Assembly (NCBI GenBank): GCA_036881865.1
Contig: JBAJNM010000016.1
Location: forward strand, 1-35,203
Reading direction: 5' to 3'
DNA length: 35,203 nt
DNA from: Parvularculales bacterium
GTDB lineage: Bacteria; Pseudomonadota; Alphaproteobacteria; JAPOUT01; JBAJNM01
Shown piece after piece: positions 3,449-8,080 of this stretch. The notes below the pieces were generated by a model. It saw only the letters and a list, made by a program, of their open reading frames with translations. It made no database searches and was not told the DNA's origin. Each line of letters begins with the position of its first letter. The first letter of the stretch is position 1. The position numbers and the translations under genes were made by a program.

Positions 3449-4417
3449 TTAGTGCGTTAGTTCAAAGGCCTCTTCCCATGTGCCCTGTGTGGCGGCCCGG
3501 GAATATTCTGTAGCGCGGCCTTCAAAGAAGTTGACATGCTCAATGCCATTGAGCATCGCATCCATCCATGGCAGGGGATTATCGTCAATCTGATAGGCGG
3601 GCTTTAATCCCAACTGCACAAGGCGGCGGTCGGCGATATACCGGATATAGTCCTTAACCTCCTGACCGGTTAGCCCTTCTACGCCGCCCATTTCGAAGGC
3701 AAGGTCAATAAAGGCATCCTCATGGCTGACGATCGTATCGCAGGCCCCGTAAATCGCCTTCCGCAAATCAGGGGTCCAGATATCCTGATTCTCATCAATG
3801 AATGTGCGAAACAGCCGGATAATGGAATTGGTATGAAGCGTTTCATCCCGCGCTGACCATGTAACTATTTGCCCGACGCCTTTCATTTTATTAAAGCGGG
3901 GAAAGTTCATGAGGATGGCGAAACTGGCGAACAGTTGCACCCCTTCCGTAAAGCCCCCAAACACGGCCAGAGTCTTGGCTATGTCCTCTTTGGTTGCCAC
4001 ACCCCATGTGCGCATATAGTCATATTTGTCTTTCATCTCGCCATATTTGAGAAAGGCTTCATATTCCACTTCGGGTATGCCGATTGTATCCAGCAGATGG
4101 CTATAGGCGGCGATGTGAATGGTCTCCATGTTGGAGAACGCCGCTAACATCATGGTGACTTCGGTCGGTTTGAATACCTGCGAGTAGTGCTTCATATAGC
4201 AATTGTTGACCTCAACGTCCGCCTGCACAAAAAAGCGAAAAATCTGAGTGAGAAGATTGCGCTCGGCATCGGTCAGGTTGCGGCGCCAGTCTTTGACGTC
4301 TTCGGCCAGAGGCACTTCTTCCGGTAGCCAGTGAATACGTTGTTGTGTAAGCCAGGCGTCATACGCCCAAGGATAACGAAACGGTTTATAGACCAGACGT
4401 TCTTCCAGTAGCGACAT
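3449..4417 (-). CDS. nrdB: Class I ribonucleoside-diphosphate reductase, beta subunit
   Basis: NrdB houses the dinuclear metal cofactor and the stable radical used by NrdA to reduce ribonucleotides. The 322-aa protein keeps all ligand positions I can align to the E. coli enzyme: Asp67 (in FFVQADVEVNN), Glu98 and His101 (METIHIAAYSHLL), Glu158 (FTEGVQLF), and Glu192 and His195 (SARDETLH). The radical Tyr is present as Tyr105, so a tyrosyl-radical enzyme is expected. The C-terminal region has the usual NFFEGRATEYSRAA motif. There is no ATP-cone domain attached. The gene follows nrdA by 83 bp on the same strand, and a GAGGAGAG stretch precedes the ATG. It converges on thyA, linking two dNTP-supply functions. 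Confidence 0.96.
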   Translation of the reverse strand: MSLLEERLVYKPFRYPWAYDAWLTQQRIHWLPEEVPLAEDVKDWRRNLTDAERNLLTQIFRFFVQADVEVNNCYMKHYSQVFKPTEVTMMLAAFSNMETIHIAAYSHLLDTIGIPEVEYEAFLKYGEMKDKYDYMRTWGVATKEDIAKTLAVFGGFTEGVQLFASFAILMNFPRFNKMKGVGQIVTWSARDETLHTNSIIRLFRTFIDENQDIWTPDLRKAIYGACDTIVSHEDAFIDLAFEMGGVEGLTGQEVKDYIRYIADRRLVQLGLKPAYQIDDNPLPWMDAMLNGIEHVNFFEGRATEYSRAATQGTWEEAFELTH

Positions 4418-4500: not shown

Positions 4501-6489
4501 TTACTGACAACTTAGACACTCATCGTTGCTATAGTCCGGCACTTCTGCCGTATCGGCCCGTTGTATAGACAAGGATCGGCAATAGTAGAGGCTTTTGACG
4601 CCATTTTTCCATGCCCTGTGATGCAGCATGTGCAGGTCACGCTTGTGAACGTCCGCCGGTAAGAAGACATTGAGAGACTGAGCCTGATCAATCATCTCCG
4701 AGCGGTCGGCGGCCAGATCAATAATCCATCGCTGGTCCAGTTCAAAGGCCGTCTTGAAGACGTCTTTTTCATCTTGAGTGAGGCAGGCCAGATGCTGAAC
4801 GGAGCCGCCGTTAATGGTAATGGATGACCATACCTCTTCATTGTTTTGTCCTTTCGTCTCCAACAGGGTTGTCAGGTGACGATTGCGCACATTAAAAGAG
4901 CCGGACAGAGTTTTGTGCGTGAAACTATTGCCCGCGATGGGCTCAATGCCGGGACTGGTTCCCCCGCAAATAATGGAGATGGAGGCCGTGGGCGCTATCG
5001 CGGTTTTATAGGAAAAGCGCTCCATGATGTTGTAGTCGGCGGCATCGGGGCAGGGGTCGCGTTCTTCGGCCAGTTTGCGGGAGGCGGCGTCGGTACTCTC
5101 TTTAATATGAGAGAAAATCTTCTTGTTCCATACTTTCGCCATGACCGACTCGAAAGGAATCATCTTGCCCTGAAAAAAAGAATGAAGACCCATAACACCT
5201 AAGCCCACGCTCCGCTCGCGCATGGCGGCATATTTTGCCCGTTCCATAGAGTCCGGCCCGCGATTGATAAAGTCTTCCAGAACATTATCCAAAAAGCGCA
5301 TGACGTCTTCAATAAATTGAGAATCGCCGGACCATTCATCAAACTTCTCTACATTAAGAGAAGAGAGACAACAGACCGCCGTGCGCTCCTGATCCAGATG
5401 GTCAATACCTGTGGGCAGGGTAATCTCGCTGCACAAATTAGATGTTTTAATTTCCAGCCCGGCCAGTTTATGTTGCTCGGGGCGGGCGTTGTTGACGGTA
5501 TCTTTGAACACAAGATAAGGCTCACCGGTCTCAATGCGTGCGGTGAGCAGACGAATCCAAAGTGCCCGCGCCGATATTGTCTGAGTAGCCGTGCTATCCC
5601 GCGGACTGATGAGTGCCCAATCGGCATCTTCTTCTACAGCCCTCATAAAGGCATCTGAGATTAACACCCCATGATGCAGGTTGAGAGCCTTGCGGTTGGG
5701 ATCGCCGCCAGTGGGACGGCGAATTTCTATGAACTCTTCAATTTCCGGATGATCAATGGGCAAATAGACTGCCGCCGACCCCCGTCGCAAACTGCCCTGA
5801 CTGATGGCAAGGGTGAGGGAGTCCATCACCCGTATGAACGGAATGATGCCACTGGTTTTGCCGTTGCGTCCGACCGCTTCACCGATAGAGCGCAGATTGC
5901 CCCAATAACTGCCGATGCCGCCACCCTTGGCGGCCAGCCAGACATTTTCGTTCCACAACTCAACAATGTCTTCCAGACTATCGTTAGCCTCGTTGAGAAA
6001 ACAGGAAATCGGCAACCCCCGCTCGGTGCCTCCATTGGAGAGAATGGGTGTTGCGGGCATAAACCACAGCCGGGAGATATAATCATAAAGCCGCCGGGCG
6101 TGGTCGGTATCATCGCCATAGTAGGAGGCAACACGGGCAAATAAATCCTGGAATGTTTCGCCAGTTAGCAGGTAGCGGTCTTGCAGGGTGGCCTTGCCGA
6201 AGTCCGTTAAGAGAGCATCGCGTCCGCGGTCCACCGACACACCGCTACGCGCTTCCAACTGAACAATCTGGTCTCGACCAAACAGAGTCTCTTCTACGTC
6301 TGTAGCACCATTATGAACGGCCTGACTGTGAGGTGGCTGAATAAGGTTGGTTACAACATTGTTTTCAATTTGACCGTTGTTCATGTTTCCATTTCCTAAA
6401 CCATCGGTGTCTGCGGCCTCATTATTGTTGAACTCATCACCGTTAAAGCCATCAAGTTTAATACCTAGTTTATCGGTATCTCGAAACAT
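4501..6489 (-). CDS. nrdA: Class I ribonucleoside-diphosphate reductase, alpha subunit
   Basis: NrdA reduces ribonucleoside diphosphates in the cytoplasm with NrdB. Numbering from the ATG at 6489 (662 aa): the substrate-reducing cysteine is Cys163 (LPISCFLNEAND), the active-site NLCSEI motif is at 351-356 (Asn351, Cys353, Glu355), and the partner cysteine is at 373/374 (TAVCCLSSLN). The radical-transfer Tyr pair is in SLYYCRS, and the C-terminal re-reducing Cys pair is in DECLSCQ. The first 70 residues are Asn/Gly/Asp-rich and contain no ATP-cone. I chose ATG 6489 because CAGGAGGG lies 11 nt upstream; the frame could begin at a TTG at 6522. The upstream region has perfect DnaA boxes, suggesting replication-linked control as known for E. 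coli nrdAB. Confidence 0.95.
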   Translation of the reverse strand: MFRDTDKLGIKLDGFNGDEFNNNEAADTDGLGNGNMNNGQIENNVVTNLIQPPHSQAVHNGATDVEETLFGRDQIVQLEARSGVSVDRGRDALLTDFGKATLQDRYLLTGETFQDLFARVASYYGDDTDHARRLYDYISRLWFMPATPILSNGGTERGLPISCFLNEANDSLEDIVELWNENVWLAAKGGGIGSYWGNLRSIGEAVGRNGKTSGIIPFIRVMDSLTLAISQGSLRRGSAAVYLPIDHPEIEEFIEIRRPTGGDPNRKALNLHHGVLISDAFMRAVEEDADWALISPRDSTATQTISARALWIRLLTARIETGEPYLVFKDTVNNARPEQHKLAGLEIKTSNLCSEITLPTGIDHLDQERTAVCCLSSLNVEKFDEWSGDSQFIEDVMRFLDNVLEDFINRGPDSMERAKYAAMRERSVGLGVMGLHSFFQGKMIPFESVMAKVWNKKIFSHIKESTDAASRKLAEERDPCPDAADYNIMERFSYKTAIAPTASISIICGGTSPGIEPIAGNSFTHKTLSGSFNVRNRHLTTLLETKGQNNEEVWSSITINGGSVQHLACLTQDEKDVFKTAFELDQRWIIDLAADRSEMIDQAQSLNVFLPADVHKRDLHMLHHRAWKNGVKSLYYCRSLSIQRADTAEVPDYSNDECLSCQ

Positions 6490-6597
6490 TAGCGATACTC
6501 CCTCCTGTGCATTTTGTCCCAATCCATCTTAAGCCACCCTAATTCTTGCACTTTCTCTGCCATGCTACGGGTCCCTCCCGGGTGTTGTGTGTGGCGC

Positions 6598-6719
6598 TGT
6601 GGATGGCATTGTGGGTAATCTCGGGCATTGTGTCGTTGTTGTGTTGTCTCATGGTGTCATTGCGGCTGCAGCGTTGGTAATCGCCGAGGCTGTGGATAAT
6701 CCCTGAGCATTGTGGATAA
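6598..6719 (-). promoter_or_regulatory. DnaA-box cluster upstream of nrdA
   Basis: Read on the minus strand, TTATCCACA occurs perfectly twice (6719-6711 and 6699-6691), 20 bp apart, that is about two helical turns. Weaker matches are at 6618-6610 (TTACCCACA, one mismatch) and 6606-6598 (CCATCCACA, two mismatches). The perfect boxes lie 200-230 bp upstream of the nrdA start. In E. coli the nrdAB promoter is controlled by DnaA, so the same logic is likely here. An origin of replication is less likely because no dnaA, dnaN, hemE or parAB gene is nearby. Confidence 0.65.
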
Positions 6720-6905
6720 CTCCTTTTTTGCCGTCTGACTCCCCTCTGTCGAATAGTATGGTTAACCATCCGGAAGGAAGGCAGTATTTCTATTGATCGC
6801 TACCGTCAGCCGCTTGACCGACCTCCGCCGACTCATTGATTGGCCCTTGCAAGAGACCCCCGTTGATTTTCCCTTCCCATCATAGACGGGAAGAAATCAC
6901 CACCA

Positions 6906-6918
6906 GATATAGTATATC
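6906..6918. promoter_or_regulatory. Perfect palindrome GATATAGTATATC
   Basis: Two 6-nt arms are perfectly complementary around a central G. It lies between the nrdA control region and the iminopeptidase gene. It does not match the NrdR-box consensus well. It could be an operator or simply an AT-rich promoter element. Confidence 0.3.
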
Positions 6919-6998
6919 ACCCCCATCCAATAGTCAACAAGTAGTATGTCAGTCCCGCCCGGAAAAATGGCTGGCAATCTGCCCTGTCAACCACCATT

Positions 6999-7024
6999 GG
7001 CGTAAATTTACCGTATTTTACGCC
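6999..7024. promoter_or_regulatory. Inverted repeat GGCGTAAA / TTTACGCC
   Basis: Perfect 8-bp arms (6999-7006 and 7017-7024) enclose a 10-nt AT-rich spacer, about 100 bp upstream of the iminopeptidase start. Spacing of about 18 bp centre to centre suits a dimeric regulator. A hairpin in RNA is also possible; no T-run follows directly, so a terminator is unlikely. Confidence 0.35.
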
Positions 7025-7123
7025 ATACAAATTTTCTTTTTTGGTGCGGCCTTCCCCTGCGTGGCTTTGCCCAATATGGTAAAGGCCGTTTTATAAGGGG
7101 GGGTTCCCCCGGAAAGAGATCGC

Positions 7124-8080
7124 ATGACATCCTCAGAATACCGCCAGCCGTATCCTTCCATAGAGCCCTATGCCTCCGGCATGTTGCCGGTTTCTGATGG
7201 TCATACGATTTATTATGAAGAGTGCGGTAATCCTGATGGCAAGCCTGTGGTGATTGTTCACGGTGGCCCGGGAGGCGGATGCAATGCGGGGATGCGTCGC
7301 CTTCATGATCCGAAGGCGTATCGCATTATTTTATTTGACCAGCGCGGCTGTGGCCGTTCCACGCCCTATGCATCATTGGAGAACAACACTACGTGGCATT
7401 TGGTTGCGGACATGGAGCGGTTGCGGGAGCACTTGGGTATTGAGAGGTGGCAGGTGTGGGGAGGTTCCTGGGGTTCAACGTTATCGTTGGCTTATGGGGA
7501 ATGTCATCCTGACCGGGCGAGCGAGTTGATCTTACGGGGTATTTTTACTTTGCGGCGTGAGGAATTGTTATGGTTTTACCAATATGGTGCTCATGCGCTT
7601 TATCCTGATGCGTGGGAGGGTTATGTAGCTCCGATTCCGGAGGTTGAGCGGGACGATATGATGGGAGCTTATTATAAGCGCCTGACGGGGGATGACCCTG
7701 AGGAACAGTTGGCCTGTGCGCAGGCGTGGAGCATGTGGGAGGGGTCTACGATTTCACTACGGGAGAGTGCAGACCGTGTTGCGGCTTTTGGTCGTGAACG
7801 TTATGCGTTGGCATTTGCCCGTATCGAGTGTCATTATTTTGTTAATGGCGGTTTTTTGGAGCGTGATGATCAGTTGATTGCGGATGTTGGTAAGGTGCGT
7901 GACATTCCCGGGGTTATAGTTCAGGGCCGTCACGATGTTGTAACGCCGATGATGACGGCGTGGGATTTATCCCGTGCGTGGCCGGAGGCTGATTTTCGTA
8001 TTGTTCCGGATGCGGGTCATGCGTTGACGGAGCCCGGTATTACTTATGAGTTGTTGACGGCTAGCGACGGGTTCCGGTAG
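7124..8080 (+). CDS. pip: Proline iminopeptidase
   Basis: This enzyme releases N-terminal proline from small peptides in the cytoplasm. The 318-aa length is normal for the bacterial S33 family. Key parts are the oxyanion motif HGGPGGG (46-52), FDQRGCGRS (71-79), the nucleophile elbow GGSWGS with Ser115, the acidic residue in GRHDVVTP, and the catalytic His in DAGHALTEPG near the C-terminus. The C-terminus ends in FR, as is common in the family. The gene is alone on the plus strand, with a weak AAAGAGA ribosome site. An unusual G7-TT-C5 tract lies immediately upstream (7097-7110). It converges on the SDR gene 58 bp away. The gene symbol rests on family similarity; substrate specificity is not proven. 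Confidence 0.93.
   Translation: MTSSEYRQPYPSIEPYASGMLPVSDGHTIYYEECGNPDGKPVVIVHGGPGGGCNAGMRRLHDPKAYRIILFDQRGCGRSTPYASLENNTTWHLVADMERLREHLGIERWQVWGGSWGSTLSLAYGECHPDRASELILRGIFTLRREELLWFYQYGAHALYPDAWEGYVAPIPEVERDDMMGAYYKRLTGDDPEEQLACAQAWSMWEGSTISLRESADRVAAFGRERYALAFARIECHYFVNGGFLERDDQLIADVGKVRDIPGVIVQGRHDVVTPMMTAWDLSRAWPEADFRIVPDAGHALTEPGITYELLTASDGFR

Follow-up and report, generated by a model that had tools for sequence, protein, structure and literature searches.

Two exact DnaA boxes in the predicted nrdA leader of an alphaproteobacterium, and class-wide enrichment of such boxes at nrdA

The ribonucleotide reductase genes nrdA and nrdB of an alphaproteobacterium are preceded by a cluster of DnaA boxes that, judged from sequence, is probably a DnaA-binding site tying nrdAB expression to the replication initiator. 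The cluster lies in the window (the whole 35,203-nucleotide stretch of DNA analysed here), whose class is that of the named relatives of its NrdA and which is contained in an assembly of 2.33 Mb in 89 contigs. Here nrdB lies downstream of nrdA, with both genes on the minus strand; nrdA was identified by NCBIfam PRK09102 (999 bits, E 5.7e-301; frame from 6522), and its ATG was placed at 6489. The features of the region are as follows.

3449..4417, minus strand: nrdB, beta subunit (NCBIfam PRK09614.1-5, 571.5 bits)
4501..6489, minus strand: nrdA, class I ribonucleotide reductase alpha subunit of the PRK09102 type, 662 aa (NCBIfam PRK09102)
6490..6902, minus strand: predicted nrdA leader, ~410 nt, containing the DnaA boxes (from the predicted promoter and the ATG)
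6598..6606, minus strand: weaker DnaA-like site CCATCCACA, two mismatches (pattern scan)
6610..6618, minus strand: weaker putative DnaA box TTACCCACA, one mismatch (pattern scan)
6691..6699, minus strand: exact DnaA box TTATCCACA (pattern scan)
6711..6719, minus strand: exact DnaA box TTATCCACA (pattern scan)
6900..6915, minus strand: predicted NrdR box 2, ATACTATATCTGGTGG, overlapping the -10 element (matrix prediction)
6909..6937, minus strand: predicted sigma-70 promoter of nrdA, TTGACT-17-TACTAT (consensus search)
6932..6947, minus strand: predicted NrdR box 1, ATACTACTTGTTGACT, overlapping the -35 element (matrix prediction)
7124..8080, plus strand: pip, prolyl aminopeptidase, divergent from nrdA (TIGR01249, 435.6 bits)

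An earlier note on this DNA had claimed two exact DnaA boxes, two helical turns apart, and two weaker ones upstream of nrdA. On rescanning, the coordinates and sequences of all four proved right, and the exact pair measured 20 bp from start to start (~1.9 helical turns, taking 10.5 bp for each turn), with an 11-bp gap. DnaA itself is encoded in full in the same genome (contig C1, 545 bits) and carries the signature GGRDHTTV, which we take to pair with the box TTATCCACA. The box-bearing stretch is GT-rich, and GGCATTGTG and GCTGTGGAT are among the short repeats found in it. Two GANTC motifs, which may be CcrM sites, also lie in the nrdA upstream region, at 6737 and 6830; by arithmetic this is about the number expected by chance.

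How unusual are these boxes in their own genome? Plain site counts in the window proved uninformative, because single near-consensus sites match chance frequency: the window contains four TTWTNCACA sites against 2.9 expected, and eight sites with at most one mismatch against 8.6 expected. In contrast to single sites, the tight pair is unusual. Exact TTATCCACA sites number 23 in the 2.33 Mb; from this figure, only ~0.003 same-strand exact pairs with a gap of at most 31 bp would be expected genome-wide (arithmetic), and the pair at 6691-6719 is the only one in the genome. As for the other exact sites, 17 of the 20 examined fall inside open frames of at least 70 aa, and none of the ten neighbouring proteins scanned is a replication protein. 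Autoregulation of dnaA through such boxes was considered and rejected: the dnaA region contains no exact DnaA box, and its sites with one or two mismatches number 25 against 22 expected from shuffles.

We then compared nrdA loci across Alphaproteobacteria, where this NrdA is present in 122 of 289 genomes (123 matches). The nrdA set comprises 120 of the 123, leaving out G076 (185 nt of upstream sequence) and G249 and G261 (partial matches) and keeping G181, G199 and G152 despite a stop just after the match start; upstream regions were 700 bp long (578 nt at one locus), from start codons estimated by script. We found that boxes occur at nrdA above chance in this class: 24 exact boxes lie at 20 of the 120 loci, against 0.62 expected from per-genome rates that are genome-wide and include coding DNA, and 17 of the 24 lie within 300 bp of the estimated nrdA start, against 0.26 expected. 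The acnA control, which consists of upstream regions, yielded no box at 40 loci, so that loci with a box number 20/120 for nrdA versus 0/40 for acnA (Fisher p 0.004), the rows being phylogenetically non-independent. This is the fair comparison; the acnA controls were hand-picked from genomes of the nrdA set, deliberately including many with nrdA boxes, and the same-genome figure of 12/40 for nrdA is inflated by that choice. By hand count, the 20 box-bearing loci span 14 family labels. The trait is nevertheless patchy, since 100 of the 120 nrdA loci contain no exact box.

An earlier, partly overlapping set of 104 loci gave 14 exact boxes, spread over 12 loci, where 40 rounds of shuffling averaged 0.8 and never exceeded 3, and a box density near nrdA 10-fold that of the rest of the loci. 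When 200 permuted 9-mers were counted in this set, their mean was 0.7, but one reached 16, above the 14 for the DnaA box; one-mismatch boxes numbered 30, versus 13-26 in six shuffles. We also found that exact boxes of the 120-locus set often have a partner (at most two mismatches, gap of at most 12 bp): 8/24 have a direct and 8/24 an inverted partner, counting both boxes of a pair, versus ~5% each at random positions. At the nrdA genes of G201, G068, G121 (L174) and G224, boxes stand head to head with a 2-bp gap, downstream of the predicted NrdR pair, as TTATCCACA-N2-TGTGGATAA or with one mismatch in the second box. We found no description of a class-wide enrichment of DnaA boxes at nrdA in those parts of the open-access literature that were searched.

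Conservation of the boxes at the nrdA genes of relatives, which the earlier note had named as a check, gave a divided answer: boxes are enriched across the class, but the exact arrangement is absent from the relatives read. The search for relatives returned 59, none of the same family and three of the same order; the only one of those three with this NrdA (G001) has no box at up to one mismatch. The pip-nrdA neighbourhood is kept in six relatives (L010, L039, L041, L042, L048 and L049), and none of the six has an exact box beside it; L039 has a one-mismatch site, ATATCCACA, in a region that includes a run of N. In each of the genomes with the highest NrdA identity (G021 and G250, 80%), a lone exact box stands upstream of the NrdR pair and promoter. 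A single exact box upstream of the nrdA promoter, in the orientation opposite to nrdA, was seen at L011, L040 and L043-L047, in genomes bearing PS1 clade, Rhodobiaceae and Alphaproteobacteria names and in G021.

These data bear on the possibility that the pair is chance or evolutionary debris, two functionless 9-mers in a GT-rich, somewhat repetitive stretch. Such an origin would fit the short repeats, a spacing unlike that of the E. coli double box and the failure to find the arrangement in the relatives read. We nonetheless consider it unlikely, as so few such pairs are expected genome-wide and boxes are enriched at nrdA across the class.

To see where else the arrangement occurs, we turned to tandem exact pairs in the class as a whole: the tandem pattern is present at 53 places in 37/289 genomes, and a reversed control pattern in 0/289. 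Thirty loci of the 53 places were looked at, with a selection of neighbours scanned (40 flanking proteins and three of L174/L175). Ribonucleotide reductase genes follow the pair at 3/30 (nrdA of the window, nrdA of G121 at L174, and the class II gene nrdJ of G124 at L175); the pair stands beside hemE at 2/30 (L153 and L178), before uvrC at 2/30 (L150 and L163), before thyX at 1/30 (L161) and at a plasmid-type RepA at 1/30 (L152). Most of the 30 loci lie away from replication and dNTP genes or have unassigned neighbours; neighbours with no clear link include glutamine synthetase (L173), a threonyl-type tRNA synthetase (L172), a histidine kinase (L179) and a phage baseplate gene (L154). At L166, tandem exact boxes lie ~550 bp from a ribose-phosphate pyrophosphokinase-like gene. 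At L153 (G257), which is probably a chromosome origin, fourteen exact TTATCCACA sites crowd into ~270 bp flanked by Maf-like and hemE genes.

Could the window pair instead be a DnaA titration or recycling site, akin to datA or DARS, that sits beside nrdA without regulating it? The E. coli chromosome is reported to titrate DnaA (PMC12371093), and the status of the window pair as the sole tandem exact pair in its genome would suit such a role. A site indifferent to its neighbour, however, would not give a class-wide association with nrdA. The exact IHF consensus is missing from 6489-7123, whereas datA and DARS2 are reported to rely on IHF. We therefore regard a titration or recycling site as distinctly improbable.

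A binding site that regulates nrdAB has to be read against the promoter. We found a predicted tandem NrdR-box promoter ahead of nrdA: two predicted NrdR boxes, about three turns apart, overlap the -35 and -10 elements, and an NrdR gene is present on contig C33 of the same genome. With a matrix trained on the same nrdA loci that it scored, the NrdR pair reaches 29.8, against a highest score of 16.6 and a 95th percentile of 9.0 for shuffled upstream regions; pairs above 9.0 occur at 109 of the 120 nrdA loci. The promoter call is weak on its own, with one site in 6400-7200 against 1.1 expected in shuffles; a similar layout was seen by eye in several relatives. The nrdA transcript would begin near 6902. 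Because the predicted promoter and NrdR boxes, which the earlier note had overlooked, lie upstream of the DnaA boxes, the latter would fall within the leader, ~180-300 nt past the promoter. The predicted leader is long, with 410 from NrdR box 2 to the nrdA start, versus a median of 126 at the nrdA loci of the class.

The position and orientation of the boxes vary at other nrdA genes: 15/24 lie downstream and 9/24 upstream of the NrdR pair, whose prediction is weak at G240 and doubtful at G055, and both orientations occur. Boxes on both sides and in both orientations are more easily explained by a protein that binds DNA than by an element acting as RNA.

Two small ORFs with ribosome-site-like sequence are present in the nrdA leader. 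The first, MLRDYPQPRRLPTLQPQ (6710-6657, minus strand), has its ATG directly after the first DnaA box and AAAGGAG before that box; the second, MAEKVQELGWLKMDWDKMHRREYR (6563-6489, minus strand), ends in a TAA that overlaps the nrdA ATG. We considered these as leader peptides and set the idea aside: a small ORF abutting nrdA with ribosome-site-like sequence occurs at only 2/120 loci.

The small ORFs, one of them starting right after the first box, would also suit an element acting at the level of RNA, with DnaA or the ribosome acting on the leader transcript, for instance by attenuation; DnaA-dependent attenuation has been proposed for the E. coli his leader (PMC10989985). The rarity of the abutting ORF across the class and the mixed box orientations speak against an RNA element, as do the ordinary folding of the leader (6470-6903, z-score -0.66) and the lack of any Rfam match in the window at the gathering threshold. 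We judge an RNA-level element very improbable.

That the boxes mark all or part of a replication origin, as tandem boxes between divergent genes and a cumulative GC skew of -0.07 to -0.02 until ~7 kb of the window and rising thereafter might suggest, is extremely doubtful: G+C is 44-57% (80-bp steps) across 6490-7129, with no AT-rich stretch; the window skew has no negative arm to the left; and hemE, beside which exact box clusters lie in two other genomes of the class (L153 and L178), is on another contig (C1), where the 600 bp upstream of it are only 26-34% G+C and, by raw count, contain two one-mismatch and five two-mismatch boxes. The AT-rich stretch just upstream of hemE in the genome of the window (L145, 901-1500) is a candidate origin.

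Together, these comparisons favor the reading of the cluster as a DnaA-binding site that links nrdAB to the initiator. On this reading, DnaA would occupy the two consensus boxes from one side of the helix, and bound DnaA would alter the yield of nrdAB transcript from the NrdR promoter. The simplest routes would be that RNA polymerase is hindered or paused in the leader, or that promoter DNA is contacted through a loop; a roadblock, a pause or a loop seems more natural than direct promoter contact because the boxes lie downstream of the predicted promoter. Two inputs would then set nrdAB expression: dATP/ATP, sensed by NrdR at the promoter, and DnaA, whose amount or nucleotide state would be conveyed by the boxes. 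The net effect could be activation or repression.

The earlier note had proposed that coupling of dNTP supply to replication initiation, as known for E. coli nrdAB, also exists in this lineage. By comparison this appears likely, given the class-wide enrichment, the intact DnaA gene and the Caulobacter precedent; the absence of the arrangement from the relatives read counts against it. The main doubts are the 11-bp gap, with no partner box at 2-3 bp, and the scarcity of close relatives among the genomes compared.

A broader hypothesis, which we advance only tentatively, is that DnaA boxes have been gained repeatedly in alphaproteobacterial nrdA leaders, just past the NrdR promoter, with DnaA blocking or gating transcription after it has started. 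If so, dNTP supply would pass a second checkpoint, one that is independent of NrdR and differs from the promoter-region control of E. coli.

In E. coli, nrdAB is under DnaA control through boxes in the promoter region (PMC8203912), and ChIP-seq found DnaA bound upstream of nrdA (PMC11317965). In the same data, all but one of the 16 bound regions matched a double box whose two sites are 2-3 bp apart, and of the 32 exact consensus boxes only 13 coincided with a bound region (PMC11317965). NrdR boxes overlap the polymerase site, and NrdR also binds the E. coli nrdAB promoter (PMC12176259). The window resembles this system in having consensus DnaA boxes upstream of a class Ia ribonucleotide reductase operon and NrdR, by prediction, at the promoter. 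It differs in that E. coli nrdAB has a double box, gTTATCCACAaagTTATGCACTt, with a 3-bp gap, whereas the window pair has an 11-bp gap, and in that the window boxes lie ~180-300 nt downstream of the predicted promoter. An E. coli-type double box is absent at the pair: neither exact box has a partner at 2-3 bp, the best candidates having 7 and 6 mismatches. By the E. coli rule, such a pair would be predicted to bind poorly; this rule may not fit alphaproteobacterial DnaA, and 22 of the 24 exact nrdA boxes of the class likewise have more than two mismatches in any partner at that distance. With the window boxes in the predicted leader and at a spacing unlike that of the double box, the E. coli mechanism is not simply transferable.

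A similar arrangement precedes nrdA of G121 (L174), where two exact boxes in direct orientation closely follow the predicted NrdR pair; it differs in its 5-bp gap, in a third, inverted box (TTATGCACA) and in that the NrdR pair stands 146 nt before the estimated start. Closer in descent than E. coli is Caulobacter crescentus, of the same bacterial class, whose nrdA and nrdB have been assigned to the DnaA regulon: nrdA (CCNA_03607) is tabulated as such (PMC3973325), NrdB is named among the direct DnaA targets (PMC3193534), and a review terms the role of DnaA at the Caulobacter nrd genes "proposed" (PMC8203912). Published work thus already covers DnaA control of nrdA and nrdB in E. coli and, in the form of a regulon entry, in Caulobacter, and the window would be a further case. 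With the counted enrichment, the connection between DnaA and the nrd genes is extended beyond these two model species to a broad alphaproteobacterial sample. In addition, lineages differ in where the boxes stand with respect to the NrdR promoter, so that activator, repressor and roadblock roles of DnaA at nrdA become directly testable.
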